Below are positions 28,369 to 50,629 of a stretch of 64,000 bases of DNA, one piece after another (position 1 is the first letter of the stretch; every line of letters starts with the position of its first letter). The notes below the pieces were generated by a model, which saw only the letters and a list, made by a program, of their open reading frames with translations, was not told the origin of the DNA and ran no database searches. Source of the DNA: Thermodesulfomicrobium sp. WS (GTDB taxonomy: Bacteria > Desulfobacterota > Desulfovibrionia > Desulfovibrionales > Desulfomicrobiaceae); assembly GCF_027925145.1 (NCBI RefSeq), contig NZ_AP027130.1, positions 992,001-1,056,000 on the forward strand. Direction: 5' to 3'. The translations under genes were made by a program, and so were the position numbers.

Positions 28369-28611
28369 CTAATTGGTTTCTTCAGCGCTGTTTTCCAGCC
28401 AGCTGATCTCGATTTCGAGCTTCACCTTGCCGGAGTCTTTGCGTTTGAGTTCCCATTCCACATGCACCTCTTTGGGAACGCACACGCTCTGGCCGGTCTC
28501 TTTGTTGCAAAATGCCCGCTGCGTGAACCCTTCGGCCAATTCCTTGAGGGTCATGCCAGCCATGTACGCCAATTGATCTCCTTCGTAGCACAGGATCTTT
28601 TCCGATGACAT
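28369..28611 (-). CDS. Amphi-Trp domain protein (GAK cassette, distal copy)
   Basis: 80 residues from the ATG at 28611 (GGAGGAAGT upstream). It is a short domain with an amphipathic helix (MAGMTLKELAEGFTQRAF) and a terminal strand pattern KVKLEIEISWLE with the conserved Trp. The amphi-Trp domain is a small family seen next to HPr-kinase-related and ATP-grasp proteins; no activity is known. It is the last gene of a nine-gene minus-strand operon and pairs with a second amphi-Trp gene 20 bases upstream. Confidence 0.8.
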   Translation of the reverse strand: MSSEKILCYEGDQLAYMAGMTLKELAEGFTQRAFCNKETGQSVCVPKEVHVEWELKRKDSGKVKLEIEISWLENSAEETN

Positions 28612-28631
28612 AGACTTCCTCCACAATGGTG

Positions 28632-28880
28632 TTAGAGTTCTCCCATCAAGGGACCCGATGTGGTCCATTCCAGCTCCATTTCCAATTTGGCGCGCGCGTC
28701 CTTGAGCTTGGCTTTGGCTTCTACCTCAAACACTGGGCTCGGCGCAAGACAGAGTCCGCGGCCGTCGTTGCCTTCCAGACGCACGCAGCCGCTGCGGATT
28801 CCTTGGGCCAACGATTCGAGCCAACAGGCCACCTGCTCCCGGGGGAGCATGCAACGGAAGGATACTTTGTCTTTACTCAT
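28632..28880 (-). CDS. Amphi-Trp domain protein (GAK cassette, second copy)
   Basis: 82 residues, ATG at 28880 with AGGAGG upstream (AACCTCCTATG context read on the minus strand). It has the same plan as its neighbour: MLPREQVACWLESLAQGI, a Gly/Arg turn, then KAKLKDARAKLEMELEW ending in the conserved Trp. The two proteins are clearly diverged paralogs, which argues for different partners rather than simple dosage. Function unknown. Confidence 0.78.
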   Translation of the reverse strand: MSKDKVSFRCMLPREQVACWLESLAQGIRSGCVRLEGNDGRGLCLAPSPVFEVEAKAKLKDARAKLEMELEWTTSGPLMGEL

Positions 28881-28902
28881 AGGAGGTTCCTCGAGAAAGG
28901 GG

Positions 28903-30078
28903 TTAACGGGCCATGGATATCAAAATGTGGCAGAGCTGGCGTGGATCGGCACGCTTTTCTGCGTTCAGCAGTGGAATTTCCAGGACGTCCACGTGGAGCG
29001 AGCGGAGAAGATCGATGGCCTCGGCACGGCCCGCGTATGATGCCGTGGGGTCCAAGACCACGGCATTGAGGACTTCGCTGGGAGGCGTATTGGCCGGGCA
29101 GGCATGGCAGAGCAGGGTGCGTATTTGGTCGCTCAAGGTGATGCCTACGGTTTCTGGGTCAGGGACCGGGTTGGGGAAGAACACCTTGGGGCATCCAGCG
29201 GCGGCGATGGCCTCGGCTACGCCTTGGGGCAGGAGATTGGCGATGAGTGAGGTGTAGAAACTGCCGATGGGGTAGCAGATGAGGTCGGCGCTGGTGATGA
29301 GCTGGGCGATTTTGTGGCGGATGCTCACGGTGGTGGCGTGGCCGTTGGGGTCCACCAAATCGAGATGCTCGATGGGGGCCTCCAGGGGGGGCACTTCCTT
29401 GGCCGTGAGTTGGTGTTGGCCGAGGACGGTGCGCCCGTTTTTGAGCCGGGCGCGCAGGTGGGCATCGGCATTGACCACGAGACGCACCTCGCCCCGAGCC
29501 TGGATGAGGCGGGCGTAGAGAAAGACGATGGGGTCCATGTGTCGACCGTCTTCGAGGTAGCCGGAAGCGAGGATGAGGTTACCGATGCTCGCGCCTCTGA
29601 GGTCGAAGTTTTGGTCGATGCGCACGGCAAAGGCGCGCAGGTGACGGCGGATGATGCGGCGCATGGGGTTTTGGATGCGCCGCACAAGGGGATGGGTGCC
29701 ATCGGCCAGGGCGTGGAGGGTGGCGCGCAGTTCGTGGTCCGGGGCTGTCTTGGGCAGGCGGTGGGCGAAGAGTTCGTAGATTTCCGGATAGCCGTGGAGG
29801 CTGCGGTCTGCCAGGGCCATGAGCCGGTTGCGCAGATCGCCCACCGCAGGCATGCCAAAGTAGCGGCGCAGCACTGCGGAGCTGCCGCCCGAGTCAAAGG
29901 GCGTGATGAGGTGGATGGAGTTATGGGTGTACTCCACGAGGGTCTGGCTGGTTTCCCGCAGGGCCGTGCCGCCGGAGAAAAAGAGGATGCGCGGTCCGAG
30001 TTCCGGGGCGCGGCGGCATAAGGCTACCCGCGCTGCATCGGGGACGGGCACACGCCGGCGCAGGAAGAATTCGGTCAT
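28903..30078 (-). CDS. CofD/YvcK-like protein of the GAK system
   Basis: 391 residues. The CofD-type fold is shown by ILFFSGGTALRE (35-39 glycine motif), HLITPFDSGGSSAVLRRYFG (20; about 57-76) and PAVGDLRNRLMALAD. A further conserved-looking segment is DLICYPIGSFYTSLIANLLP (20). CofD transfers a phospholactyl group to a flavin (F420 synthesis) and YvcK binds UDP-sugars; which, if either, applies here is unknown. No F420 genes are in the window. It overlaps the HPr-kinase-related gene by four bases and is followed by two amphi-Trp genes. Confidence 0.85.
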   Translation of the reverse strand: MTEFFLRRRVPVPDAARVALCRRAPELGPRILFFSGGTALRETSQTLVEYTHNSIHLITPFDSGGSSAVLRRYFGMPAVGDLRNRLMALADRSLHGYPEIYELFAHRLPKTAPDHELRATLHALADGTHPLVRRIQNPMRRIIRRHLRAFAVRIDQNFDLRGASIGNLILASGYLEDGRHMDPIVFLYARLIQARGEVRLVVNADAHLRARLKNGRTVLGQHQLTAKEVPPLEAPIEHLDLVDPNGHATTVSIRHKIAQLITSADLICYPIGSFYTSLIANLLPQGVAEAIAAAGCPKVFFPNPVPDPETVGITLSDQIRTLLCHACPANTPPSEVLNAVVLDPTASYAGRAEAIDLLRSLHVDVLEIPLLNAEKRADPRQLCHILISMAR

Positions 30079-31145
30079 GCACTAAGCTCCTGGCGCAGGA
30101 GACGGGCCGCTTGCGCAAAATTGACCCCGCCGGAGATCTCGAACACCGGGCAGCCCTCGAGCGCCGATACGTAATCTGCTGGCGAGGGATGCTGCCAGGT
30201 GGGGGCCAGGAAGAAGAGTCCTGGGTCTTTCATGAAGGCTGGCAGCAGGTCAGGGCGTCGACTCACGTCCACCGCCTGCAGCCGCACCGGGGTGTTGTCC
30301 CGCCGCCAGTTGAGGATGGCCAGGGCATGGAGCGGGGTGGCCAGGCGGAATCGGTCGGCCCCGAAGAGTTCGTGGATGGGGGCGTCGTACTTGGCCTCGA
30401 GGGTCCAGAGCTCGTCGGCAGGCAGGGCGGCGAAGCGTTGGCGGTCTGCCTCGGGTAGCAGCGGGGCGAGGGCGGGATTCCCCAGGATGGTGCCGGGATT
30501 GATGCGTGGATGCTTGGCCACGCCAAAGGCGTGGAGGGTGCCCTCCTGGCGCACCAGCACGAGGCGGTCGTTGCTGACGAAAGTGGCGCCTTCGGTGACC
30601 AGATGCAGGGCCAGGGTGGATTTGCCCATGCCCGAGAATCCGGCCAGGGCCACGCCGCGGTGCCCCAGGATGACCGCTGCGGCATGGGCGAGCAGCCCGC
30701 CGTGCTGCAGGCGGTACTCCAAAAAGCGATTGTTGACGAAGTTGATCACCTGGTTGGGGTTGGCCTCGCAGTCGCCTATGGCCACGTGATGTCCGGCACC
30801 AAAAAGGAACAGCATCCCGGTGAGCCGTTTGCGCACGATGCGGCCGTCGTCGGTATCGAACCATTCCTCCTTGATTTTGGTCTTCCCCGGTTCCGGCGGT
30901 TTGATGCGGAAGGGCACGTCCAACTCCGGCGCCGGCGCCTGCACGGCGAAGATTTCCACCGCAGGCGGCTGGGAGCCCTCCTCCAGGAAGGGCTGGAAAT
31001 AGCGGGTCAGCTCGGTGTGCAGGGCGGTGGAATTGGTGTGCACGCCAAGGACGAGGTCGGCCATGCGCACGGAAAGATGCGCCCGTACGGGATATTTGGC
31101 TGCCAGGGCCAAGGCGAGATCAGCGATGCGTGGTTGGGTGAGCAC
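30075..31145 (-). CDS. HPr-kinase-related protein B (GAK system)
   Basis: 356 residues if it starts at GTG 31145, which has CTGGAGA a few bases upstream; codons further upstream lie inside the ATP-grasp gene. The P-loop GFSGMGKST (169-177) is followed by a Ser/Asp-containing VSNDRLVLVR, as in the HPr kinase/phosphorylase nucleotide domain. The family's usual partner HPr is not encoded nearby, so the substrate is probably another protein, perhaps one of the amphi-Trp or XXXCH proteins (inference). It overlaps the ATP-grasp gene by 26 bases. Confidence 0.85.
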   Translation of the reverse strand: MLTQPRIADLALALAAKYPVRAHLSVRMADLVLGVHTNSTALHTELTRYFQPFLEEGSQPPAVEIFAVQAPAPELDVPFRIKPPEPGKTKIKEEWFDTDDGRIVRKRLTGMLFLFGAGHHVAIGDCEANPNQVINFVNNRFLEYRLQHGGLLAHAAAVILGHRGVALAGFSGMGKSTLALHLVTEGATFVSNDRLVLVRQEGTLHAFGVAKHPRINPGTILGNPALAPLLPEADRQRFAALPADELWTLEAKYDAPIHELFGADRFRLATPLHALAILNWRRDNTPVRLQAVDVSRRPDLLPAFMKDPGLFFLAPTWQHPSPADYVSALEGCPVFEISGGVNFAQAARLLRQELSA

Positions 31146-32013
31146 GAATCTTCTCCAGGACGTAATCAGCGTACAGACCGGCGGCATCCATGCCGCAGGC
31201 TTCAAGGATGCCGCGGAAGCCGCCAAAGGCCGAGACCTCGAATACCAGCGGCCCCTGGGCGGTTTCCACGATGTCCACACAGGTAAAATCGAGGCCGAAC
31301 AGGGCCTGGGCACGGCGGGCCAGTTCAATGAGTTCCGGTTCGGGTTGGGCCGGGGCATATTTGCCGCCCGAAGCCGTGGTGGTGTTCCAGGCGTTGGCGT
31401 CGGTGCTGCACCGGGCATAGGTGGTGAGATAGCGGCCGCCCAAAAAGACGAGGCCCAAATCGCGGCCCGGGATATCGATCTTCTGCTGGATGTACATCAC
31501 CGGGTTGGTGGCCTGGAAGTCGGCAATGCGCGCCAGGGCGTCTGGACCGTCATCGATGACCTCCATGCCCCGGGCCTTGGAGGTATAAAGGGGTTTGAAC
31601 ACCGCGCTGCCGAAGCGCTCCACCGCGGCCAGGGCTTCGGCAGGGGACTCGGTGATGACCGTGGGGGGCATGGGGATGCCGCCAAGGCGCAGGGTGACGG
31701 TGCAGCTCAAGCGATCAAGGGTACGCATAATGGCCAGCGGAGAGGAAAAGATGGGCAGGCCTGCTTCCGCCGCAAAGCGCAGCAGTTCCAAGCGGTCCAA
31801 GAGCAGCGGCGAGTAGCGGGAGCCGATCTTTTTGATGATCAGGGCATCAAGGGTCCGCAAATCCACGCCGTCGTACCACAATTGTCCGTTGTGGAGGTCG
31901 AGACAGGCTTCTTCCATGTCGACAAGGAGTCGGAATCCCGTGCGCTCTGCCACGGCATCGGCCAAAAGTTCCGAAGACCAGCCGCCTTTGGTTCCTACGA
32001 CACCAATTTTCAT
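31120..32013 (-). CDS. ATP-grasp ligase of the GAK system (RimK-like)
   Basis: 297 residues. The ATP-grasp fold is visible in the central AVFKPLYTSKARGMEVI (nucleotide-binding Lys), MYIQQKIDIPGRDLGLVFLG (20) and the metal-binding Glu/Asn-type strand FTCVDIVETAQGPLVFEVSA (20) with FGGFRG. Relatives such as RimK and lysine/arginine-biosynthetic LysX form amide bonds with Glu using ATP. The acceptor here is unknown. It overlaps the upstream PhoU/phosphotransferase gene by four bases and the downstream HPr-kinase-related gene by 26. Confidence 0.87.
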   Translation of the reverse strand: MKIGVVGTKGGWSSELLADAVAERTGFRLLVDMEEACLDLHNGQLWYDGVDLRTLDALIIKKIGSRYSPLLLDRLELLRFAAEAGLPIFSSPLAIMRTLDRLSCTVTLRLGGIPMPPTVITESPAEALAAVERFGSAVFKPLYTSKARGMEVIDDGPDALARIADFQATNPVMYIQQKIDIPGRDLGLVFLGGRYLTTYARCSTDANAWNTTTASGGKYAPAQPEPELIELARRAQALFGLDFTCVDIVETAQGPLVFEVSAFGGFRGILEACGMDAAGLYADYVLEKIRAHPTTHR

Positions 32014-33656
32014 TGTGCTTTTCCTTGTTCGAGGAGGATTTCCAACGGAAAGACAAAAGGATTATTGTTGTCCTGGGCATCCAAAAGACGCTCCATCAGG
32101 TATATGGCTTTATGATACATCGTCTTGGCAAATTTTTTATTGAGTTGAAATCTTGTGGAGGTGAAAAGCGAGCGAACAACACCGATTCCAAGACGAATAT
32201 GGAAAGTTTCATCATGAGTTTTTATTGCAAAATTTCGAGAAAATTCAAAAAACTTCAAAATAACTTTATTTATTCGAATTCTTGATTGGATATCAAAAAT
32301 GGGTATTCTAAAGTTTGATATGAGAAAAACAGAAACATCTTGGATGTAATCGCCATGTTGAGAGCGATAGACATCGATAAAGTAGATGCGCTGGTCTCCG
32401 TGATTGTAGATGATATTGTTGGTATTGAAGTCTCCGTGGGTGAACACGGAAAAAGGTGCCGGCGACTGCTGTTCGACTGTCTCCAGGCGGTCGAGCAGTT
32501 GGGAAAACGAAGGTACGTGGAAATCGTCCACGCACAGGGCGGGGCGTTGGAGCTCGGGGTGGACTTGAAACACCGCTGGCATGCGTTCGCGCATCTGCCG
32601 GATGAACGTAGAATGCAGGGGGTGGGGCTTGCGGGTTTGCTCCCAGATGTCATGGAGGGTCTGCTCGAGGATAAAGAGGGCGTTGTCGAGGATGTCTTCT
32701 TCCACATTGAAGATGGCCTCTTCCAATGAGCATCCGGGGAGGAATTCCGTGAGTAGCGAGGCCGTTTCCCCGTCTTCGTGGTAGCCGAAGATGCGCGGGA
32801 CCAGCCCAGGATAGAGGGCGTTCCAGCATTCGAGATTGGTCTTTTCCTGACGAATCTTGCGGAGATTTCCTTCTTTGAAGATGCTATCTTTGGCTTGTGG
32901 CCTGTCTTTTTCTTCTACCTTGGCGATGCGACATCCAGATCGCGTTCCCCAAATTCCTTGGAAATCGACTTCAGTGACGTCTCCATCAACACCACTTTTG
33001 GACAATGTTGTCTGAAGAGCTTCAAATTGTTGTATTTTTATTTTTTCTCCGATAATAGAAAAAAGTATCGATTCTCCTATATTGAGAAGAGAATCTCCGA
33101 TACGTTCCATGTATCGAATAATAAAAAGAGAAGTAATATGATCCTCAACATTGCGTCCGATGCGCAATTGAACCATTATTCTGTCAAAATTCTCTTTATA
33201 TATGGAATCGAGTTCGGATTCGAGGCGGCATATACTGAGCGCTCCTGGAAGATTTTTGTTGTCTAATATGTCCATTATTGTGCCAATAGCTTGATGGACT
33301 TCTCCCATTTTTTTCTTGTAAGAAAGGATCTCTATCGTTTTTGGAGATGACAGATACCCCATCTGTTTGGCGATATTGACACAATAATCGGCAATGCGCT
33401 CAAGATTGATGGCCATGATATGAATGGCCCGCAAGCGATTGATGGCTTCTTGATTGAGACTGAATTTATTGAGTGAAGAATAACATTTATTTTCAATGAT
33501 ATTTTTGAGATTGTCGATGTAGTCGTCTTTAGCAATAATTTTATCGTAGGTTTTTGGCGTTGGACGCTCAATGAATGATAACGTTGCTTCCAATTGATTT
33601 TGGACTTCTAAGATAAGAAAACGAAAGTTTTCCTCAATTGTTTTTATATTTTTCAT
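32010..33656 (-). CDS. PhoU-like domain fused to aminoglycoside-phosphotransferase-like kinase domain
   Basis: 548 residues from ATG 33656, just after the TAA of the amphi-Trp gene. Residues 1-215 form two PhoU-type helical repeats (INRLRAIHIMAINLERIADY, 20; then IRYMERIGDSLLNIGES). From about 225 on there is an APH/choline-kinase-like domain with the catalytic THGDFNTNNIIYN and the metal-binding IDVYRSQHGD. The PhoU part is AT-rich compared with the flanking genes. PhoU domains bind phosphate-transport or signalling proteins; the kinase half should phosphorylate a small molecule or protein. The combination is unusual and its substrate is unknown. Confidence 0.85.
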   Translation of the reverse strand: MKNIKTIEENFRFLILEVQNQLEATLSFIERPTPKTYDKIIAKDDYIDNLKNIIENKCYSSLNKFSLNQEAINRLRAIHIMAINLERIADYCVNIAKQMGYLSSPKTIEILSYKKKMGEVHQAIGTIMDILDNKNLPGALSICRLESELDSIYKENFDRIMVQLRIGRNVEDHITSLFIIRYMERIGDSLLNIGESILFSIIGEKIKIQQFEALQTTLSKSGVDGDVTEVDFQGIWGTRSGCRIAKVEEKDRPQAKDSIFKEGNLRKIRQEKTNLECWNALYPGLVPRIFGYHEDGETASLLTEFLPGCSLEEAIFNVEEDILDNALFILEQTLHDIWEQTRKPHPLHSTFIRQMRERMPAVFQVHPELQRPALCVDDFHVPSFSQLLDRLETVEQQSPAPFSVFTHGDFNTNNIIYNHGDQRIYFIDVYRSQHGDYIQDVSVFLISNFRIPIFDIQSRIRINKVILKFFEFSRNFAIKTHDETFHIRLGIGVVRSLFTSTRFQLNKKFAKTMYHKAIYLMERLLDAQDNNNPFVFPLEILLEQGKAQ

Positions 33657-33657
33657 T

Positions 33658-33921
33658 TTATTCAATATGAATTGATGATTTTTTTATACTTTCATCTCTA
33701 TCTTTCCAGCTCAATTTAATGTTGATCTTTGTTTCTCCTGATTTTCTTTTTGCTGTGAGATGAAAAGATAAAAATCCATTTGGCTCTAAAATCAGCGACT
33801 TTCCTTCGCTTGTGAGCGAAATCGTTCCTTTGGAAAATCCTTGTTCCAGTGCATGAAGATATCTGCGAATGGTCTCGCAGTCTTCTAAAGATTCAAATTC
33901 AATTTTTTCTTCCGCCGGCAT
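33658..33921 (-). CDS. Amphi-Trp domain protein (GAK cassette, proximal copy)
   Basis: 87 residues from ATG 33921 (AGGGAG upstream; two earlier in-frame starts lie in the end of the PHP-like gene). It matches the other two amphi-Trp proteins: IRRYLHALEQGFSKGTI, then LEPNGFLSFHLTAKRKSGET and KINIKLSWKD with the conserved Trp. It has an acidic N-terminus. Third paralog of the operon. Confidence 0.78.
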   Translation of the reverse strand: MPAEEKIEFESLEDCETIRRYLHALEQGFSKGTISLTSEGKSLILEPNGFLSFHLTAKRKSGETKINIKLSWKDRDESIKKSSIHIE

Positions 33922-33934
33922 ACAGACTCCCTGA

Positions 33935-35077
33935 TCATCCATGCAGACGCTCCCGGTATTCACGAATGACGATTTCTCGGGTCATGCCCGCGAGGATGAC
34001 CCGCTTCGAGATTTCCAAATCTTCCCATGCCGGCTGCCAGCCGATTTCCCGCGACGATTTTTCAGGGTGACGTTTGGCCGCGTCCTTGACCTTTTCGCCC
34101 ATGTGGGTGTCGTCGCCCATGAAAATGAGTTTGCGCCGCCGCTCTGGTCCCAAGCATTGATTCGCCCGTCCCAAGGAAGTGATGAGAAATGGGGTGTATC
34201 GCTGGGACTGGGGATTCCATGTCTCGAAACCGTCCACATCGTAGTCGGCTAACAGGATGGGCCAAAACTGCTCGGGATGAGGAATGACAATGCCCGCCCC
34301 CAAGGACCTCGCTTCTTCGATGACCTCCGAGGTGCGGTAAAAGTACTGCAAAGGGAAACGCTCTTTGACCAATCGTTTGACATGGGAAAGAAAACTTTGC
34401 GCATGATCAATACGATCGTCATCTTCCTCTCCACGCAATGCATCGAAATAGTCGCGCAAAATTTTATTTTTTAGGGAATCTTGCGGGAGCTCGTCGTGCA
34501 AGGATTCAATCATCAATTGTATTTTACGAACGTGTTCTCGAACCCATTGAACGAGCTCTGCTGAAGCTCCTGTTTCCCGAGCTGCAAGAAAGAGGATCTC
34601 GCTTTCCGGATGCACGATGGCATGCATGAAATCGAAAAGCTGGCTTGCCCGGTAGCGTCGGGTGTGCTCGAGCATGGCGCGCAAGGTATGCGCCTGGCGT
34701 ACCCGATCACTGCGAAAATGCAAAAGGAGTTGGACTTTTTGATCAAAGCCCCGGGAATAACAGTCAACCTCGACGCCGCTGTACGGACCCAATTCCAAAA
34801 GCTCGTTATGTTGCGTGGGAATGATGAGTGTCTCTTCGGCATTGGGAAACATGCGCTGGATGCGAGTGGCGATGACCTCCATGGGCACGAATTCCGGATG
34901 CCAATGCACGGCGAGCACTGCGCGCTGCAGCGGAAACACCCGCTCTGGTTGCGCCAGCGATTCGAGCTGTTCTGGTGTCAGCCGCGTTTCCGTGACCACC
35001 CGCAGGCGCTGCCAGTCTTTTTCTTGCGGCTCCACGGCATCGAGGCGCGGAAAGGAGAAAAAATGAGGAGTTTTCAT
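33935..35077 (-). CDS. PHP-like putative metal-dependent phosphoesterase of the GAK cassette
   Basis: 380 residues; the ATG follows directly on the TAA of the XXXCH gene. Metal-ligand-like motifs are scattered as in PHP-domain enzymes: HWHPEFVP (58-65), IIPTQHNELLELGPYSGVEV (20; His90), a middle helical part, then IVIPHPEQFWPILLADYDVD (20) with GFETWNP, and FMGDDTHMGEKV near the C-terminus. I infer a PHP fold from this order (HxH ... E ... H ... DxH); no close characterised relative is known to me. It could remove a phosphate that the cassette's kinases add. Confidence 0.7.
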   Translation of the reverse strand: MKTPHFFSFPRLDAVEPQEKDWQRLRVVTETRLTPEQLESLAQPERVFPLQRAVLAVHWHPEFVPMEVIATRIQRMFPNAEETLIIPTQHNELLELGPYSGVEVDCYSRGFDQKVQLLLHFRSDRVRQAHTLRAMLEHTRRYRASQLFDFMHAIVHPESEILFLAARETGASAELVQWVREHVRKIQLMIESLHDELPQDSLKNKILRDYFDALRGEEDDDRIDHAQSFLSHVKRLVKERFPLQYFYRTSEVIEEARSLGAGIVIPHPEQFWPILLADYDVDGFETWNPQSQRYTPFLITSLGRANQCLGPERRRKLIFMGDDTHMGEKVKDAAKRHPEKSSREIGWQPAWEDLEISKRVILAGMTREIVIREYRERLHG

Positions 35078-35581
35078 TTACTTGGAGCGCCCGTGGCAGG
35101 CTTTCTTTTGGGCATCCAGGGCCTGGACCGCTGCTTGTATTTCCGCAACATCGCCTGCGGCAATGGCCTCTTCCAGACGTCGGCAGCTTTCGAGGAACAC
35201 GGAGTAGTAGGGATCGCCGTATCCCGCAAAGGTGGTCATGCGCCGGGCATCCACAAGAAATACGGACAACAATTCCTGGGAGGGGATCTCTCCTTGCTCG
35301 GCGCTTTGCCGGATGCTGCGCCAGTACACCTGCATGCGCTTTTTGAGCTTCGAGTATCCTTCGTCGTCGTCCTCCCCGGTGGGGGCGAATCGACCGCTGA
35401 ATTTGACCTCCAGGGTGTCGCCGGCCAACTGGGTAAACTTGAGCTTGAATTTGATGAGCTCTGCCAGCTGAATGCCAAACCCGTTGACCTCGCTTTCTCC
35501 TTCCTCGATGGCGGTAGCGAGTGCTCGCAGGAAACGGGCGGTCTCACCGCGGGAGAGTGTCCAAATGCTTTTGGTTTTCAT
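35078..35581 (-). CDS. XXXCH-domain protein of the GAK system
   Basis: 167 residues, first gene of the operon (GAGGAGG upstream of the ATG). The N-terminal half resembles an amphi-Trp-like helix-plus-strands unit (LSRGETARFLRALATAIEEG, 20; then IKFKLKFTQLAGDTLEVKFS). The C-terminal half is helical and ends KKACHGRSK, with the Cys-His pair that names the family. The exposed Cys/His near the C-terminus could be a modification or metal site. Function unknown. Confidence 0.78.
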   Translation of the reverse strand: MKTKSIWTLSRGETARFLRALATAIEEGESEVNGFGIQLAELIKFKLKFTQLAGDTLEVKFSGRFAPTGEDDDEGYSKLKKRMQVYWRSIRQSAEQGEIPSQELLSVFLVDARRMTTFAGYGDPYYSVFLESCRRLEEAIAAGDVAEIQAAVQALDAQKKACHGRSK

Positions 35582-38247: not shown

Positions 38248-39147
38248 TCATGCGGCCTTTCGGATGGCATGAGCCTGCCGGGCTTCTAGGGGGGACATGA
38301 ATCCCAATTTTGCCAGACGCCAATGGCGATTGTAACGATCCCTGAACTCAGTAGCGGCCTGCCGCACCGCTTCGAGGTTGCGGAAGAGGCGGCCATGAAT
38401 GGCCTGCTCCTTGAGCGTCCGATTGAAGCGCTCGACGCCTCCGTTGGTCTGAGGCTCGGCAACAAAGGCGAAGCTCTGATTGATCCCCCAGAACTCGATC
38501 TGCTTCAGGCGGTCCTCGGCCGTGTATTGCGTGCCGTGATCCATGCGCAGCTTGAGCCCCTTGCCGGCGTTGGCGCCGGTGCTGCCCAACTCGGAGTCAA
38601 GCCCCTGGGCGATCGGCTGCAATGCCGCAAAGCGATTGCCGATCTTCGCGACATGGATGCCGACACAGTAGGCATCGTAATGATCGACGGCAGAGAGCAC
38701 CCATACCCAACCGTCTTCCACGGTCTGGATGCGAATCCCGTCGGTGCCCCACATCAGATTCGGCGCCGTGGCCTGAATCGAACCTTCGTGAGCAGAGGGC
38801 GCGCCCTGTCGCACCCGATGGGGCGAGAGCAAGCCGTTCTCTCGCATCAGACGGCAAACGCGATCCTTGGATACCCGGATACCAGAAAGGATACGCAGCC
38901 GCGCCCACGCCTTGCGATGGCCCTCACCGACGAAGGGCGAAGCCTTGAGGTCAGCATGGATGGCTGCCAGGAGATCGGCGTCGGAAATTTTTGGCTTCGG
39001 GCCGCGCCGCGCCGGATGCAGCGGGACCACCTTGGCGGTCTCCCTGGCCTGCTGGGCGTAAAGGGTCGAGCGGGGGAACCCCAGTACCCGGCAACCCCGC
39101 TCAAGGCCATAGGGCTTGCCGGTGCTTGGCGAGGTCTCGCGGCTCAT
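38248..39147 (-). CDS. IS3-family transposase, OrfB (DDE integrase domain)
   Basis: 299 residues. The HTH-like start GLERGCRVLGFPRSTLYAQQ (20) is followed by the retroviral-integrase core: first Asp in LMWGTDGIRIQ, second Asp region LSAVDHYDAYCVG with RMDHGTQYTAED, and the Glu in TNGGVERFNRTLKEQAI. Probably produced both alone and as an OrfAB fusion by programmed frameshift at the ATGA overlap. All catalytic residues are present. Confidence 0.9.
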   Translation of the reverse strand: MSRETSPSTGKPYGLERGCRVLGFPRSTLYAQQARETAKVVPLHPARRGPKPKISDADLLAAIHADLKASPFVGEGHRKAWARLRILSGIRVSKDRVCRLMRENGLLSPHRVRQGAPSAHEGSIQATAPNLMWGTDGIRIQTVEDGWVWVLSAVDHYDAYCVGIHVAKIGNRFAALQPIAQGLDSELGSTGANAGKGLKLRMDHGTQYTAEDRLKQIEFWGINQSFAFVAEPQTNGGVERFNRTLKEQAIHGRLFRNLEAVRQAATEFRDRYNRHWRLAKLGFMSPLEARQAHAIRKAA

Positions 39148-39542
39148 CGCGACGACCTCCTGCCGGCTAAAGGGCGGCGCACCTCTCTTTTCTTGCGCAG
39201 CATCTTGAATTCCATCTCCAACTCGCCGATGCGCCGGTTGGCATCATCGAGTCGCTTCTCGATCGGGTCATTCTCCCGTTCCTTGAGACCGGCATCCATG
39301 CCGGCCAAAGCACGGTCGCGCCACTGCTCCAGTCGAAAGATCGGCATGCCCAGCTCCCGTGACAGAGCATCGACCGATTCGCCGCGCAACAGGCGCAGCA
39401 CGACTTGCTTCTTGCGCTCCACTGACCAACGCTTGATCTCGGCCACCGCGCTGGGCGCGCTTGCAGTCGCGCGACGCGCACCAATCAGCGCACCCAGCGC
39501 AACCCCGCCATCCTTCATCTCATTCAGCATTTCTCGCTCCAT
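39144..39542 (-). CDS. IS3-family transposase, OrfA (helix-turn-helix)
   Basis: 132 residues. A helix-turn-helix is seen in VERKKQVVLRLLRGESVDAL (20) with SRELGMPIFRLEQWRDRAL, followed by a Leu-rich helical C-terminus (RLDDANRRIGELEMEFKMLR, 20) that mediates oligomerisation. Upstream of and overlapping orfB. Confidence 0.9.
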   Translation of the reverse strand: MEREMLNEMKDGGVALGALIGARRATASAPSAVAEIKRWSVERKKQVVLRLLRGESVDALSRELGMPIFRLEQWRDRALAGMDAGLKERENDPIEKRLDDANRRIGELEMEFKMLRKKREVRRPLAGRRSSR

Positions 39543-40747: not shown

Positions 40748-41917
40748 CTAGTGCGCAGGCACGCAAGTTGCCATATCCAAGGCTTTGCGTGCACAGTCCA
40801 GTACTTGTTCGACACTCACAGCGCTAATACACGGCACTGGGCCACCAGCATCGTGGGGCTGTGTGCAGCGCCAATTGCAGCCAAAGCATGACATCAACCG
40901 AGCCGCAACAACGGGCTTGATACCATCTAGTTGCTCAGGATAGGGCATAAATCGTCCATAATGCCCACCGCCCAGAATACATACCGCTGGCGTAGAAACT
41001 GCGGCTGCAATGTGTACAGCGGAAGTTTCATTGGCGATTAACAATCGAGCGTCACGAATCAAATCAGCCAGTTCGATTAAGTTTGTCCGACCAGCCAGGT
41101 TAAGCCCCCATCCAGAGATCCCATCCAAAATATTCTGGCAAACTGTCCATTCGTTTTTAGCCCCACACAAAACGACTTGCCAACCAAACTGAACGCACAG
41201 CGATTGAGCAACTTGAACAAAGTGCCTTGTTGGCCACATTCTGCCCTTCCATGATGCACCGGGAAACAAAATGAAATACGGTTTTCTAGGCTGGAGTTCG
41301 CTACGCAGGACCGCCTGGTAATTCCAACGCGGCAAACTGGCACTAAACGCCCGACCCGACAAATGTCTGATGAATTCGGCATTTCTATCTAACTCCATCA
41401 GCGGTTCTTTATTTGCGGGAAGCAATCTGGTGTACCAGCGATCACTTATTCTTTTGTCTTGGACGTCAATATTTGAGAGATCACCAATGGAGCCAATCCG
41501 ATGATTCGCCCGACTTACCCGAACGATGCTATCCCCTATTAAGAAAACTCTCGAGAACGTAGGTTGGATGGCAATCTCAAAGTTTGCCTTACTCACTTTA
41601 TGAATGAGGAAAAACCGATAAAACAGATTCCACACAAACGCCTTTACATCAACAGGCCATACCTCATCCCAATAGGGTAGAACTTGCGCCATTTCTGCCC
41701 AGGCTGCATTGGCAATCAACGTGATCCTTTGCTCAGGATAAATTCGACGAAATTCTTTAGCGCTGTCTAGGCAAATAATAAAATCGCCGATCGCATCCAA
41801 TCGAATGAGAGCGACCCCAGACTTTGGACGGCTACAAGCCAGAGAGGATGCTACCTTGTCCAGGCCGGTGAACAGGCGTTTTCGGCATTTTTTCAATAAT
41901 TGGATTAGTAACTTCAC
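40748..41917 (-). CDS. Heptosyltransferase-like glycosyltransferase, GT9 family
   Basis: 389 residues. GT9 features: VALIRLDAIGDFIICLDSAK (20) at the N-terminus, YFILFPGASWKGRMWPTRHF (20) with FVQVAQ, and the donor-binding ARLLIANETSAVHIAAAVST (20). ADP-heptose:LPS heptosyltransferases share this plan, but members in O-antigen loci use other sugars. The C-terminus contains four Cys in FGCNWRCTQPHDAGGPVPC, which is unusual. Confidence 0.87.
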   Translation of the reverse strand: MKLLIQLLKKCRKRLFTGLDKVASSLACSRPKSGVALIRLDAIGDFIICLDSAKEFRRIYPEQRITLIANAAWAEMAQVLPYWDEVWPVDVKAFVWNLFYRFFLIHKVSKANFEIAIQPTFSRVFLIGDSIVRVSRANHRIGSIGDLSNIDVQDKRISDRWYTRLLPANKEPLMELDRNAEFIRHLSGRAFSASLPRWNYQAVLRSELQPRKPYFILFPGASWKGRMWPTRHFVQVAQSLCVQFGWQVVLCGAKNEWTVCQNILDGISGWGLNLAGRTNLIELADLIRDARLLIANETSAVHIAAAVSTPAVCILGGGHYGRFMPYPEQLDGIKPVVAARLMSCFGCNWRCTQPHDAGGPVPCISAVSVEQVLDCARKALDMATCVPAH

Positions 41918-41951
41918 AATTCTTAAAATAAAGCGTATTGGCTAACCAGCG

Positions 41952-42656
41952 TTATTTACGAGCTATCACTTTTATCTCATAGGAGAATATCTGCGGAGTC
42001 GGCGCGTGGAAGGCGCTTCCAGTCACCTTATTCCAGAATGCGTAGTTGAAACGATAGATACTCAACAAAATCTTTCTCGCGACTCGGACCAGTGGTTTCA
42101 CACCTAACGTGCAATCCACATCAAGAAATTCGACACTGGTATATCCCGCAGCACGCAGCACATAGTAAAGGCTGCCAGCAGTAAACAGTGTCTCATGCGT
42201 AAAGTCTTCGTATGCCCAATAACACCCTGTGTTTGACTGTGCATTCGGCACCATAATGATTACCCATCCCTGGGGTTTCAGCAGGTCACGTATCTTTTTT
42301 AGCAGAGAAATAATATCCTTCTTCGGGAAGTGTTCAAGTATATGGCTCATGATCACCAAGTCGTACTTGCTCTTACTAGCTTCGTAAAAGACCGTTTCTA
42401 CGGATAGATCATGTACAACGATGGAACGACTGCGTAAATGAGCGATCGCTGCTGGATTGATATCCGCTCCCTCGACATTTTCGTACCCGGCCTCTTTTAA
42501 GGCGATAAGCAATTGACCGAATCCACAGCCAAAATCAAGGATTGCCGCACCCTTATCGAATGATGCCAGTGTAGAGCTCAAATAAACAGGAAGTCTGTAA
42601 TTTTCATACATTGACGGGGTTACATTTCGCCAAGCGAAGTAGTCGTTTTGTTCCAT
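41952..42656 (-). CDS. Class I SAM-dependent methyltransferase
   Basis: 234 residues. The SAM-binding motif I is ILDFGCGFGQLLIALKEAGY (20), motif II YENVEGADINP, and a catalytic-region motif DLVIMSHILEHFPKKDII. The substrate is probably a sugar of the polysaccharide or a lipid-linked intermediate (inference from neighbours). Sixteen bases downstream of a second methyltransferase gene. Confidence 0.85.
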   Translation of the reverse strand: MEQNDYFAWRNVTPSMYENYRLPVYLSSTLASFDKGAAILDFGCGFGQLLIALKEAGYENVEGADINPAAIAHLRSRSIVVHDLSVETVFYEASKSKYDLVIMSHILEHFPKKDIISLLKKIRDLLKPQGWVIIMVPNAQSNTGCYWAYEDFTHETLFTAGSLYYVLRAAGYTSVEFLDVDCTLGVKPLVRVARKILLSIYRFNYAFWNKVTGSAFHAPTPQIFSYEIKVIARK

Positions 42657-42672
42657 GGAAACCTCTTTTCAC

Positions 42673-43476
42673 TTACGTTGGGCAACTTTGACTGCGACGC
42701 AGCATCAGGCGATGATCGTCCATCGTTTTCGAACCGAGACGGCGACGAATCCACCAAGGCGCAATACGCGATGCCCAGCGACTGGTGGCGCACTTCAATA
42801 AAGTTGCATTAATCAACTTTCTGGAAAGCACATGAAGGCCATTTGCGCTGGCGAAATGAAGACCCAAATGCCGCCCTAATATTTTAAGCGTGCGCCGCTG
42901 AAAAAAACCGATATGCTGGCCCGTTTCGAATGCATAGTACCACCACTCATCCGGCTTTGGCGGTGCGCCCTCGTAAAGCTCGGTTGTGAAAATCAACGTT
43001 TGTGCACCAGAAAACGCTAGCGTTTCTTCAATGAATGCAGCCGGATCGGTCAAATGCTCCATTACTTCTATCGCAGTAACCGCGGTACATGGCCCCAGCA
43101 CCGGACTATACTCGAAGCCGCGAGCCAGCAGGTTGTCGCAGTATTTGTCGGCCCAGTAAAAGTCGAAACCTAAGTCGCGCATGAGGCGGGTCAGCATACC
43201 GTAGCCACCCGCGGCATCCAAGTAACGGCCCGTGCCACGTTCCTGCAGCACCCAATACAGCACCCCGGCCAATTTGGAGGCGATAGAAAGGTTTCTCATG
43301 ACCAGCCCGGTGTCAGCAGCAGCGATGGCAGAGGTATAGGCTTCGTCTAGCCAATTTGGGTCGCGGGCACACAGGAAGCCACAGTTGTCGCAGACTTCGT
43401 AGCTAGCTTGATATTTGGACAGCACCGTCGCGGTGAAACTGAATTTCATCTCCCCTTCACAAACAGGACAACGCAT
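42673..43476 (-). CDS. Zinc-ribbon methyltransferase of the polysaccharide locus
   Basis: 267 residues from ATG 43476 (AAGAGG upstream). The N-terminus carries CPVC and CDNC pairs that should bind zinc, then a methyltransferase core (RYLDAAGGYGMLTRLMRDLG, 20; AVTAIEVMEHLTDPAAFIEE, 20) and a C-terminal basic tail. The layout resembles C-methyltransferases of deoxysugar pathways (zinc N-domain plus SAM domain), which is a possible role here. It is the last intact gene before two transposase remnants. Confidence 0.8.
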   Translation of the reverse strand: MRCPVCEGEMKFSFTATVLSKYQASYEVCDNCGFLCARDPNWLDEAYTSAIAAADTGLVMRNLSIASKLAGVLYWVLQERGTGRYLDAAGGYGMLTRLMRDLGFDFYWADKYCDNLLARGFEYSPVLGPCTAVTAIEVMEHLTDPAAFIEETLAFSGAQTLIFTTELYEGAPPKPDEWWYYAFETGQHIGFFQRRTLKILGRHLGLHFASANGLHVLSRKLINATLLKCATSRWASRIAPWWIRRRLGSKTMDDHRLMLRRSQSCPT

Positions 43477-43667
43477 ATCTCGGAACCTCTTTACCAAATC
43501 TAACCTCGGATGATCCTGTCACCACCATGATGTCGCATCCCGGACGATCATATACTACCCTCGCACCTCGGTTACCTGCTCGCGCGCAGAGTTCTGGCCG
43601 AGCTGTCGGGTGCGCGCCACAGCAGCAAGGACGTCTTATACCGGGAGTCCAACGAATAATCACACGC

Positions 43668-44627
43668 CTGTACGAGTGCACCCACACCACACCGCACGTG
43701 CGCGCCGAAATTTCCGACAGAAACTACCCCATTGCCACGCTGGCGCAGCGCTAGAGTGTGTCGCCCATAACGGGTTTCAATTGGAGGCACCGCACCGACT
43801 TCGTGGACCGTCCTCACGCGGAGCACCGGCCTCAGACAACGCGCACGCCGGCGCAGGAGGCCATCGTCGTGGAACTGCGCAAGACCTTGTTGCTCTCGCT
43901 CGATGGCTTGCTGACCGTCATCCGCGAGTTCATCAATCCCGATGTGTCGCGCTCCGGGCTGGATCGCTGCTTGCGCCGCCATAGCTTGCGCAACCTCAGA
44001 ACGCTGCGGCCGGAAGCGAGTATGCCTGCGCACTACCCGTTTGCGGCGAATAAGCCAGAGTTTGTGCACATCGATCTCAAGTACCTCCCCCCGATGACCG
44101 GTGAGTTCTCGCTCCGCTACCTGTTCGTGGCCATCGACCGTGCCACGCGCTGGGTGTTCGTGCAGGTCAAGCCCGCCAAGACCGCTCGTAAGGTACGGGC
44201 GTTTCTCGCTGCCCTCATCCGGGCCTGTCCCACCCGGATCCACATCATTCTCACCGACAACGGCAAGGCGTTCACAAACCGCTTTGTCACCACCGCCGAG
44301 CGAATGCCCAGCGGGCAGCACGTCTTTGATGCGTTGTGCGCGACCCTGGGCATCAAGCATCGGCTCACCCGGGTGCATAGGCACCAGACCAACGAGATGA
44401 TGGAGCGCTTCAACGACAGCATCGAAGAAGTGCGGTGAAGCCGCCATTTCGTCAGCAGTGAGGATTTGAAGCAGACTCTGCTGCGCTTCGCTTGTCTGTA
44501 TAACCACCATCTACCCCACGCCGCACTCGACGCCCGCACGCCGGTTTGAGCCATGAAGGACTGGCATCGCACGCATCCTCGTCTGTTTCACAAAAAGCCA
44601 AATGATCGGCCGGAACTTGACACATAG
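43668..44627 (+). pseudogene. IS481-family transposase, decayed by three stop codons
   Basis: One frame (codons in register with 43668) reads as an IS481-type transposase: HTTPHVRAEIS, ATLAQR-stop-SVSPITGFNWRHR, DRPHAEHRPQTTRTPAQEA, SRSGLDRCLRRH, FVHIDLKYLPP, YLFVAIDRATRWVFVQVK (18), ILTDNGKAFTNRF, then after another stop LYNHHLPHAALDARTPV, stop, AMKDWHRTHPRLFHKKP. The stops are TAG 43752, TGA 44436 and TGA 44547. DDE residues are mostly preserved, so decay is recent. It is on the strand opposite to the locus. Confidence 0.85.
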
Positions 44628-44652
44628 AGCAGAACAGGTGCAAACTTGTTAA

Positions 44653-45882
44653 GGACACTCTGCAAAACCCCTCCCCTCCGGCAAAATAGCAGCGGGAAGA
44701 CGCGAGACACCACGGATGCTGCCATGATGAAGCAGATGAGCCTTGCCGGTGCTGGATTCGAACGCAAGACCAAACGCTCGCGCAAGCGCGGGTTCCTTGA
44801 CCAGATGGAGCGTGTGATGCCGTGGGGTGAGCTTGAGGCGCTGATTGCGCCGTACATGCCTGCGCCTGGCCCCAATGGCGGACGCCCCCCGTATTCGGTG
44901 TCGGTGCTCTTGCGCATCCACTTTTTGCAGCAGTAGTTCAACCTCTCGGACCCGGCGATGGAAGAGACTCTCTATGACACGCCCATGTTTCGCGAGTTCG
45001 CGGGGCTCGACATCGGGAAAGATGCGCTGTCCGATGAAACCACCATCTTGCGTTTCCGACACCTGTTGGAGAAGCACGACCTGGCGCGCAAGATGCTCGA
45101 CGTGGTCAACGCTGTGCTGCTCGAGCACGGGCTCATGCTGCGCCAAGGCACGGTGGTGGACGCCACCTTGATTGCGGCACCGAGCTCGACCAAGAACCGC
45201 ACACGCAGCCGCGACCCCGAGATGCTCCAAACTAGAAAGGGCAACCAGTGGTACTTTGGCATGAAGGCCCACATCGGGGTGGATGCCGACTCGGGTCTGG
45301 TGCACACGGTGGTGGGCACTGCTGCCAACGTCAGCGACGTCACGCAAGCGAGCCAACTGCTCCACGGTCAGGAGTGTGACGTCTTTGCCGATGCGGGCTA
45401 CCAGGGTGTGGACAAGCGCAAAGAGGTCCAGGGCAAACACGTCAACTGGCACGTGGCCATGCGTCTTGGCAAGCGCCGTGCGCTGGAAGCCAAGAGCCCG
45501 ATGGGAGCGGTGCTCGCTGAGCTCGAGCGCATCAAGGCTTGCATTCGTGCCAAGGCCGAGCATCCCTTTCACATCGTCAAGAACCTCTTTGGCTACCGCA
45601 AGACGCACTATCGCGGGCTGGCCAAGAACAGCGCGCAGCTCATGACGCTGTTTGCCTTGGCCAACCTGTGGCTGGCGCGCAAGCGACTGCTCAACATGGT
45701 GCCCCAGGGATAAGTGCGCCCGCAGGGGGCCAAAAGTGGGCCCCAAAGGAGCCCGCTGGTCCCCCAAAGGCTGTCTCATACCCGGCTGTAGGGTTTCAAG
45801 TCGCCGCAATCGATCCCCAAATGCCATCATGTGAAACCTCGGCGACTCGCGGTGTCCGCAGCAGTTGTTGTGCAGATGTTTC
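44653..45882 (+). mobile_element. IS5-family insertion sequence with TTAA target duplication
   Basis: About 1.23 kb. The left end GGACACTCTGCAAAAC and the right end (reverse) GAAACATCTGCACAAC are imperfect inverted repeats. TTAA flanks both sides (44649-44652 and 45883-45886), matching the YTAR target preference of the family. It contains one transposase gene interrupted by an amber codon. The insertion sits between the IS481 remnant and a glycosyltransferase gene. Confidence 0.85.
44724..45713 (+). pseudogene. IS5-family transposase with in-frame amber codon
   Basis: A single frame from ATG 44724 to 45713, about 330 codons, interrupted only at TAG 44934-44936, where family members have Trp (LRIHFLQQ-stop-FNLSDPAMEE). 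Downstream parts are intact: FREFAGLDIGKDALSDETTI (20), TVVDATLIAAPSSTKNRTRS (20), YFGMKAHIGVDADSGLVHTV (20), VFADAGYQGVDKRKEVQ and FGYRKTHYRGLAKNSAQLMT (20). One substitution would restore it. Very recent inactivation or suppression. Confidence 0.88.
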
Positions 45883-45901
45883 TTAATAATATCGAAGGAC
45901 A

Positions 45902-47074
45902 TTAGTTGCTATCCAAAATATTTTGAATACACTCTTTTAATCTTCTATAATATAAATCTTGCGAATGATTTGTTTTTACAAATTGCAGATTATTATATTG
46001 CAATTCCTTAATTTTATTAGTCGACAAAAGCATAGAATGTTTGATTGCCTTATCAACACTTTCGTAATCAAAGCCCTCAATCCAAATTTCGTAACCTGTT
46101 TTTATAGTTGTTTCTTTAGTAATGATAGGAATCAGACCCCCGTTCCCCACAGCAGTCAATACAGATGGCGCCCCCCCCTCAGAGCATGAAGGAAAAATGA
46201 CAAACGAACATAACGATAGAATATCATGAAACTCTTTATTTGTTATATCAATAAATCCATGGACTCTTACATTAGGCGACTCAAAAAGCTCTTTTTTATA
46301 CGCATCTACAAACTCCTTCTCATTTCCGATCGGGCCACATACGTGAAGAATAATATCTTGATTTCGAGAAAAATAGTCGAGACAAAGATCTAAACCTTTG
46401 TGAATTAAACCCGAACTCCCAAACCATAAATAGTGCCGCCTCGAAGAATCTTTCCTGTTTCTTATTATATTTTCCCCATCTTGTGTTTCGTAAAAAGGAG
46501 CTGGAAGCGCATGGACTATACCATCGTAATATTTTCTATAGCTATTTGCACATACTTCATTGCCAAGCGCTATTATTCCATCAACCAGAACTGTTTGATG
46601 AGTCCAAGTCTTTTCCACAAACCTAGCCGACTTTCCAAGCCACACCCCTTTTTTTAAATAGACATCCTTTACGCGCTTTAATGAAATGTTATTTTGATGG
46701 CAAACATGCATTCCCGTCCCATAATATATGGTTCGAATCCTTCTATTACCACTTAATTCAAACACCCTCTGAAAAACATCTCCGAAACCACATATCAAAT
46801 CATATTTAGCTAAATCAATTTTTTTTGTGCATCTATAATCTATAATATCTACATTAAATCCAAGATCGTCAAGAATTTTTGACCAACATTGAGCTTCAAA
46901 AAAATTTGTGTGCAAAAAAGGGTGTTTGTTTTTCTTAAACGGCGCTAAGATATAGGACAATAACGCATTTTTTTTGTGCGCCCTTTCCCAGTAATTCTTC
47001 ACAATTCGATTATTGTTGTAACTCACAATAATTTCTTTTATTTTTTTAAGGATCAATTTTTTAACGTTTTCCAT
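45902..47074 (-). CDS. Glycosyltransferase, GT-B type, AT-rich
   Basis: 390 residues. The C-terminal half has the GT4-like YLWFGSSGLIHKGLDLCLDY (20), ILHVCGPIGNEKEFVDAYK, VRVHGFIDITNKEFHDILS and the donor site FPSCSEGGAPSVLTAVGNGG (20). The N-terminal half is less typical and has several Cys. It is far richer in A and T than neighbouring housekeeping genes, pointing to acquisition from elsewhere. It overlaps the flippase gene by 22 bases. Confidence 0.82.
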   Translation of the reverse strand: MENVKKLILKKIKEIIVSYNNNRIVKNYWERAHKKNALLSYILAPFKKNKHPFLHTNFFEAQCWSKILDDLGFNVDIIDYRCTKKIDLAKYDLICGFGDVFQRVFELSGNRRIRTIYYGTGMHVCHQNNISLKRVKDVYLKKGVWLGKSARFVEKTWTHQTVLVDGIIALGNEVCANSYRKYYDGIVHALPAPFYETQDGENIIRNRKDSSRRHYLWFGSSGLIHKGLDLCLDYFSRNQDIILHVCGPIGNEKEFVDAYKKELFESPNVRVHGFIDITNKEFHDILSLCSFVIFPSCSEGGAPSVLTAVGNGGLIPIITKETTIKTGYEIWIEGFDYESVDKAIKHSMLLSTNKIKELQYNNLQFVKTNHSQDLYYRRLKECIQNILDSN

Positions 47075-48459
47075 AGAATTTTTAAAGACAATGAATCAAG
47101 AATTAATTTCAGCATTCTTTTGTCGCGAAAACCAAATATGCAATATACAATCAACAAGGAACTCAATAACGCATAAATCGCTCCAGCCACTCCAAATTTA
47201 TGTATTAGAAAATAATTAAAAATTATATTTAATAATGCCACACACCAATGAAATAACATGATTCGTTTAGCTTTGTTTTCTATTATCATCCAATAATTCC
47301 AAACGGAATTAAAAAAAATAAGCAAATTGACTGCTGCCATTGAACTCACTAATTGAGCAGCGTCTGCATACCTTTCGCTATACACCATTTGGATTATGAC
47401 TTCACCGAGACTTACGTATATAAAAAAAATTGCTATTGCAAGCCAAACTAATAGAGTTGATACAAAAAGAAGAGCGTCGTAAAATAATTTCAAGTTTTGG
47501 TGTTTTTTTACCAACCAAGGCATCAAAGAATATAAAACCAATCCTGGCAAAAAATACCACAACGTCACCAGACGATAAGCTGAATTGTAGACACCAACAC
47601 CAAAATCGCCTATTATTTCCTTAATCATTACACTATCGATGTTTGAAAATACGACGAACGAGAAACCCCCGAGCATTAAAGGCAATGCGTCTTTCAAAAT
47701 TGCTCTAGCCGTATTCAGATTAAATCTCCAATTTCGGATACTTAGTTTTACATAGTTGCATGTATAAAACCAAACGTACCCTATTGCCAACAAAAAACCA
47801 TCAAACACCACGGTCCATACAAAAGCTATTAAAGGCGCTTCAAAAAGTATAAGCGATACTTTTGTAGCGCTTGAGATCATAAGCGCGACTGCATTTGCGT
47901 ATGTGATGTATTTTCCCATCACCTTACTCTGAAAGTACATATCAATAACATTAAAACTTTGAAATATTGTGCCCAATGCGATAATAAAAACCAAAGTGTT
48001 TGTGTCTGTGTCATTTGAAGTTAAGTTCACCGCTATAGAAAGCAAGATTAGCAGAGTAACAGCTCCGATGATTTTGAGCCAAAACGCCGTACCGAGAAGC
48101 TCGTCTCGTCTGCTCTCTTCTTTGACAAGCTCACGAACAACGATATTGTCAAGACCAAGAGAGGCAATTGGCGTAAAAAGCGCTACAAAACTTTGTGCAT
48201 AGCTGAATAACCCATACCGCTCAGGACCAAGATATCGAGCCACCAAAACCCCTACAAAAAACCCTAATATCATTCGAAGAACTTTTTCTGCAAAAAGCCA
48301 GTTGGTATTAACAGCATAGCGGCGGAAATCTGGATGGGATGTAAATCGCGAGACATAAGAAGACAAACTTAAGAAACGATATCTGAGACGCAGAAAACCC
48401 TTACACAGCAAGTTTCTTGGCATCTGTCGCTGATGGGGCAGCAGTCCGTCACCACGCAT
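47053..48459 (-). CDS. Wzx-type oligosaccharide flippase
   Basis: 468 residues from ATG 48459, overlapping the end of fcl by 11 bases. It is a polytopic membrane protein with 12 or more hydrophobic segments. The start of the transport domain, [20 protein letters not shown] (20) with [18 protein letters not shown], is characteristic of the Wzx/MATE-like family. It moves undecaprenyl-linked repeat units across the inner membrane. AT-rich like the downstream glycosyltransferase. No Wzy polymerase was recognised in the window. Confidence 0.9.
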
Positions 48460-49540: not shown

Positions 49541-49545
49541 GGAGC

Positions 49546-50628: not shown

Positions 50629-50629
50629 G

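Follow-up and report, generated by a model that had tools for sequence, protein, structure and literature searches.

A 64,000-nucleotide stretch of DNA from Thermodesulfomicrobium sp. WS (the window, part of a complete 2.36-Mb genome) carries nine adjacent genes which, judged by their profile matches, are a genuine GAK system, a set already named and functionally uncharacterised. Comparison of GAK loci across phyla indicates that the cassette is probably associated with the phosphate (Pho) regulon. Tentatively, it may be a phosphate-responsive phosphoryl-transfer module, running a cycle of phosphorylation and ligation on a small metabolite.

The GAK cassette

All nine open reading frames lie on the minus strand between 28369 and 35581, where they adjoin, overlap or are separated by at most 22 bases. 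In an NCBIfam profile search seven of the nine proteins exceeded the cut-offs for five GAK-series families (TIGR04354-TIGR04358). A preliminary description, which had claimed a nine-gene minus-strand GAK cassette and GAK family names without assigned function, is borne out on both points by the frames and profiles. Here a single operon encodes members of all five families, each above its cut-off, whereas NCBIfam itself gives names without function. The genes are as follows.

35078-35581, minus strand: XXXCH protein; N-terminal amphi-Trp domain (residues ~1-65) and four-helix bundle like cytochrome c'/b562, with C-terminal CH (TIGR04358, 99.7 bits; TIGR04354, 22.3 bits; model pLDDT 89; cytochrome c' matches; H163 invariant)
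33935-35077, minus strand: putative PHP-like metallophosphoesterase (conserved motifs, no profile match)
33658-33963, minus strand: amphi-Trp protein 1 (TIGR04354, 55.8 bits)
32010-33665, minus strand: PhoU-APH fusion kinase, 551 aa, core (Pfam PhoU, E = 2.5e-24; APH, E = 3.1e-10)
31120-32013, minus strand: GAK ATP-grasp enzyme, RimK/MptN/LysX-like (TIGR04356, grasp_GAK, 458.6 bits; structure 5zct, E = 1.8e-23)
30075-31145, minus strand: HprK-related kinase B (HprK-B), start corrected (TIGR04355, HprK_rel_B, 481.5 bits; HPrK structures, E = 2.5e-4)
28903-30078, minus strand: GAK CofD-like protein, closest to YvcK/GlmR, accessory (TIGR04357, CofD_rel_GAK, 485.9 bits; structure 2ppv, E = 4.3e-39)
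28632-28880, minus strand: amphi-Trp protein 2 (TIGR04354, 50.7 bits)
28369-28668, minus strand: amphi-Trp protein 3, borderline (TIGR04354, 31.7 bits, cut-off 31; Pfam, 23.5, below the cut-off of 27)

The raw HprK-B frame is about 91 codons too long at its 5' end; the likelier start is the GTG at 31145 (residue 92 of the frame), and the profile aligns from residue 99 onwards. As the XXXCH protein has an N-terminal amphi-Trp domain, the cassette holds four such domains. The literature library searched returned no paper on the GAK system or on amphi-Trp, nor one dealing with ATP-grasp, HPr kinase and PhoU together, and a fitness paper on Desulfovibrio vulgaris (PMC10102598) makes no mention of ATP-grasp, PhoU or CofD. 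PADLOC models for anti-phage defence matched none of the nine proteins, and a search for a phage-borne ATP-grasp gene found none.

G+C content falls to 0.30-0.54 at 32000-33900 (amphi-Trp 1 and PhoU-APH) and is mostly 0.50-0.69 in the remaining operon; a close relative (L004) has a comparable dip at ~8100-9900. The segment is possibly foreign or constrained. Elsewhere in the window, a polysaccharide cluster (40748-50694) encodes heptosyltransferase-like proteins, methyltransferases, a glycosyltransferase, a flippase, an epimerase and GDP-mannose dehydratase, with G+C down to 0.345 at 46-48 kb. The DNA between it and the cassette has a gene for an IS3-type integrase (rve; 38248-39147), overlapped on its upstream side by a small frame (39144-39542).

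Core and accessory genes

A scan of 84,980 genomes with the ATP-grasp protein gave 61 loci (62 with the window), distributed among Desulfobacterota, Rhodobacterales, sulfur-oxidising and methanotrophic Gammaproteobacteria, Nitrospinota, Planctomycetota, Zixibacteria and FCPU426. The nearest relative found was an uncultured Desulfomicrobiaceae genome, whose ATP-grasp protein is 92% identical. Among these 62 loci, many of which are cut by contig ends, PhoU-APH was present in 61, amphi-Trp in 57, HprK-B in 55, the CofD-like gene in 36, the PHP-like gene in 32 and XXXCH in 18. The core of the system is amphi-Trp, PhoU-APH, the RimK-type ATP-grasp enzyme and HprK-B, with the CofD-like, PHP-like and XXXCH proteins as accessory members. 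Since the same gene order recurs in several phyla, the cassette is not a product of chance.

GAK genes cluster; the scattering that the preliminary description had named as grounds for rejection is not seen. Among 101 relatives, all 43 genomes with HprK-B fell within the 52 with grasp_GAK above cut-off (5.5e-20 by counting, shared ancestry being ignored). Eight genomes (G050, G060, G063, G073, G079, G083, G088 and G094) have two copies of HprK-B, and at one G060 locus (L103) grasp and HprK-B were found with no PhoU-APH or amphi-Trp detected. Besides the query genome, broader draws yielded the system in 0 of 141 Alphaproteobacteria, 4 of 23 Nitrospinota, 4 of 293 Planctomycetota and 20 of 296 Desulfobacterota. 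This patchy occurrence, together with the plasmid-borne location of the system in Rhodobacterales, suggests that it has spread horizontally.

The Desulfobacterota-type order is XXXCH, PHP-like, amphi-Trp, PhoU-APH, ATP-grasp, HprK-B, CofD-like and amphi-Trp. From the alpha- and gammaproteobacterial loci and most of those in Planctomycetes PHP and XXXCH are missing; genes for a histidine phosphatase, a metallophosphoesterase and amphi-Trp are present, often with NUDIX and a SixA-NUDIX fusion. As one type of phosphatase is swapped for others, removal of phosphate or pyrophosphate is presumably a fixed step of the pathway, and the replacement by phosphatases and NUDIX proteins points to a small phosphorylated compound. 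In Pseudodesulfovibrio-like loci (L107, L110, L009, L010 and L063) a gene for a ParA/MinD-type ATPase adjoins the downstream amphi-Trp gene. Glycosyltransferase genes adjoin some GAK loci, inconsistently.

Probable association with the phosphate regulon

Genes for PstS, PstB or PhoU lay within ~10 kb of 12 of 116 GAK loci (7 of 61 in the first set, 4 of 35 in the second and 1 of 20 in the third). The corresponding figure for random windows of similar size is 1 of 80 (P = 0.009). In this comparison the GAK loci are phylogenetically non-independent, and the random windows, a few of which overlap, come from related genomes of Desulfobacterota and Nitrospinota only. When only loci collected later than the hypothesis are counted, 5 of 55 have Pst/PhoU neighbours (P = 0.04). 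The loci with such neighbours are found in Planctomycetota (L024), Desulfobacterota (L025, L032, L080, L082, L109 and L207), FCPU426 (L039 and L048), Pseudomonadota (L038), Zixibacteria (L008) and Nitrospinota (L093). About 90% of the GAK loci, that in the present window included, lack a Pst/PhoU neighbour within 10 kb. A scan with a Pho-box consensus gave chance level at GAK loci, and most pstS controls were missed by it too.

PstSCAB-type genes adjoin the cassette in a Planctomycete (L024), a Desulfobulbaceae member (L025) and a Desulfobacteraceae member (L032); PstSCAB-PhoU adjoins it in L080 and PhoB-PhoR-Pst in FCPU426. In two Desulfovibrionales families (L109 and L207) genes for PhoB, a PhoR/PnpS-type kinase, PstB and PhoU stand immediately upstream of XXXCH-PHP-amphi-Trp-PhoU-APH, with Pho and GAK genes in the same direction on one strand. 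The likeness to the Pho regulon (PstSCAB-PhoU-PhoBR) lies both in adjacency, in several lineages, and in the PhoU domain of a core protein, although the PhoU of GAK is fused to a kinase. To our knowledge such a PhoU-kinase fusion is known only from the GAK cassette. Neither the Pho link nor the exchange of PHP for other phosphatases had figured in the preliminary description.

Genes for CHAD proteins lie beside the cassette in L029, L031, L033 and L024, two of the four being confirmed by profile; CHAD is a polyphosphate-binding domain (PMC6537752). On a Halorubrum plasmid (L198, 6013-6513) a haloarchaeal amphi-Trp domain is fused to an HVO_2922/DUF1508-like domain, with pstS-pstC-pstA ~2.4 kb away, and in Haloarcula marina another amphi-Trp gene is near one for a phosphate permease. 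Phosphate transporters were present in two of five haloarchaeal amphi-Trp plasmid neighbourhoods, too few to count.

Enzymes of the cassette

The preliminary description's two kinase-like folds and ligase are upheld by the APH, HprK_rel_B and grasp_GAK matches, the ligase being of RimK type. In the APH domain the HGDxxxxN kinase motif, D216 and K49 are invariant in 30 of 30 sequences. The ATP-grasp protein aligns over its full length with the RimK structure 5zct (E as listed above) and shares the ATP-grasp core of RimK/MptN/LysX ligases. Its Asp and Glu metal ligands are kept; it differs at the third metal-ligand position. The Asn of RimK is a metal-binding ligand; in GAK it is replaced by an invariant Ser261 (EVN to EVS261, 32 of 32).

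HprK-B shares with HPr(Ser) kinase/phosphorylase the P-loop and the catalytic His region, and its P-loop Gly-Lys-Ser, H154 and D193 are invariant. However, the Asp-Asp of HPr kinase has become N192-D193 in 28 of 28 sequences, and there is little similarity beyond the P-loop region. The homology of HprK-B and of the YvcK-like protein could be taken to mean HPr-type carbon-catabolite signalling, in which HprK-B would phosphorylate HPr and the YvcK-like protein adjust the flow of cell-wall precursors, as in Firmicutes. HPr was indeed found in 26 of 30 GAK genomes, including that of the present organism. In the other four, those of L052, L053, L058 and L064, none was found, and three of these four have the HprK-B gene next to that for ATP-grasp; HPr is therefore not the general substrate of HprK-B. 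As HprK-B also has only one of the two Asp residues of the active site and several GAK genomes are without the CofD-like gene, signalling of this kind is very improbable.

The CofD-like protein had been taken for a CofD-type transferase, an assignment that needs revision, since the only solved structures really similar to it (E of 0.1 or better) are of UPF0052/YvcK (GlmR) rather than F420 CofD. With YvcK/GlmR and F420 CofD it shares the sequence family and the nucleotide-site motifs GGSS and GDxRN. In Listeria, GlmR is an accessory uridylyltransferase for which two Asp residues are important (PMC10128056). Of the GlmR catalytic residues D40, D41 and N198, the D40 equivalent is kept and the D41 position (Ser63) is mostly Ser. 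A further difference from YvcK/GlmR is that in GAK the gene is an accessory one.

No Pfam or NCBIfam profile and no PDB sequence matches the PHP-like protein. Its motifs HWH, QHN, GVEVD, IPHPEQF, GYEVWNPQS and GDDTH are conserved in 26 homologues, in all of which the PHP-type metal ligands (HxH, H, E, H, H, DxH) are invariant, making the phosphoesterase suggested earlier a likely one.

Three of the enzymes (ATP-grasp, HprK-B and CofD-like) thus carry family-specific changes near the catalytic site that are invariant or nearly so. From the residues affected, they may have a different chemistry or none. The conservation of the changes would favour a shared altered chemistry or a regulatory use rather than decay.

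Amphi-Trp and XXXCH proteins

Across 87 amphi-Trp domains Trp70 is the sole invariant residue, and there is no conserved Ser, Thr, Lys, Cys or His acceptor and no conserved C-terminus. The model (pLDDT 89) has one helix followed by four strands; Foldseek with this model gave no convincing PDB match, with nothing at E < 1, a result compatible with a new or a known fold. In the last hairpin basic residues dominate in bacteria; the single haloarchaeal homologue read has acidic ones in that position.

The N-terminal amphi-Trp domain of XXXCH is supported by a weak match to TIGR04354 and by a strand-helix-strand-strand pattern in the model. K80, F108 and H163 are invariant and Cys162 and Met83 nearly so. 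Sequence and fold matches of the C-terminal four-helix bundle are dominated by cytochrome c' and b562 (profile match to cytochrome c', E = 0.002; Z ~10.9, rmsd 3.0-3.8 over ~100 residues, values within the generic range for helical bundles). The bundle and the C-terminal CHxxY resemble these cytochromes; in contrast to them, XXXCH is without the first Cys of CxxCH and without a signal peptide, and is fused to amphi-Trp. From the model, and with the signal peptide absent, XXXCH is possibly a cytoplasmic heme or redox sensor. Extra XXXCH genes, short frames of 93-120 aa, occur away from the cassette in many Desulfovibrionales (for example, G026, G047 and G060).

These features bear on whether the cassette modifies a protein. 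RimK amino-acylates ribosomal protein S6, and HPrK homologues phosphorylate lasso peptides. Both families thus act on proteins, small proteins are encoded alongside the enzymes, and XXXCH has a fixed C-terminal end besides its three invariant residues; HprK-B and APH might therefore phosphorylate, and the ATP-grasp enzyme amino-acylate, a partner such as amphi-Trp or XXXCH. The absence from amphi-Trp of a conserved nucleophile or C-terminus speaks against a covalent carrier. XXXCH, present in 18 of 62 loci only, is not a core substrate, and its fixed end would be explained by its likeness to cytochrome c'. As the NUDIX partners also suggest a small molecule, modification of a protein is rather unlikely. 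The earlier proposal of amphi-Trp and XXXCH as carriers is weakened accordingly; of the pathway that it described, phosphorylation and ligation are retained, and of its two targets the small metabolite is favoured over the carrier protein.

Alternatively, the enzymes could synthesise and degrade a highly phosphorylated signal of phosphate status, akin to polyphosphate or an inositol pyrophosphate, in the manner of the eukaryotic ATP-grasp kinase PPIP5K, NUDIX proteins and histidine phosphatases. The basic hairpin of amphi-Trp, the Pho-regulon link, the CHAD genes adjoining four loci and the SixA-NUDIX, histidine phosphatase and metallophosphoesterase partners agree with such a signal. We consider it improbable, however, because the relatives of the ATP-grasp protein are RimK/LysX ligases and a match to PPIP5K/ITPK was absent at E 0.01, because neither the second nor the third set of loci yielded CHAD, and because the one haloarchaeal hairpin is acidic.

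A possible phosphate-responsive module

In the phosphate-responsive module that we tentatively favour, the PhoU half of the fusion would read the phosphate signal of Pst/PhoR, as free PhoU does, and gate the fused APH kinase. This kinase and HprK-B would phosphorylate a small metabolite, to whose carboxylate the ATP-grasp enzyme would join an amino acid or other amine, and the YvcK-like protein, where present, might make or bind a nucleotide-linked form. PHP, or the set of histidine phosphatase, metallophosphoesterase and NUDIX, would hydrolyse the product, so that its pool follows phosphate status. The amphi-Trp proteins would be non-covalent effectors or adaptors rather than carriers, and in the present organism XXXCH may couple an amphi-Trp domain to the cytochrome c'/b562-like bundle, a link through which heme or redox state might be sensed.

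This module is favoured because of the core and gene order in 62 loci, Pho adjacency, the PhoU domain of a core protein, phosphatase/NUDIX replacement, intact catalytic motifs (APH, the HprK P-loop and PHP ligands), CHAD genes near four loci and the lack of a conserved attachment residue in amphi-Trp. Counted against it are the ~90% of loci without Pst/PhoU within 10 kb, the uninformative Pho-box scan and the altered catalytic-site residues. In a more specific and speculative form, which is unlikely to hold as a whole, GAK would make an undescribed amino-acid-conjugated, phosphorylated second messenger reporting phosphate status; it would be made by the PhoU-gated kinase, the HPrK-like kinase and the RimK-like ligase, read by amphi-Trp and erased by the interchangeable phosphatases.

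To the NCBIfam names are added here a core that includes PhoU-APH, interchangeable phosphatases, an affinity to YvcK over CofD, the exclusion of HPr as general substrate, weaker grounds for the carrier idea and, most importantly, the association with the phosphate regulon. The Pho link gives the GAK families, so far names only, a concrete growth condition and phenotype for study. If the proposed mechanism is true, phosphate signalling in bacteria would include, next to PhoR-PhoB, a second layer based on a metabolite.
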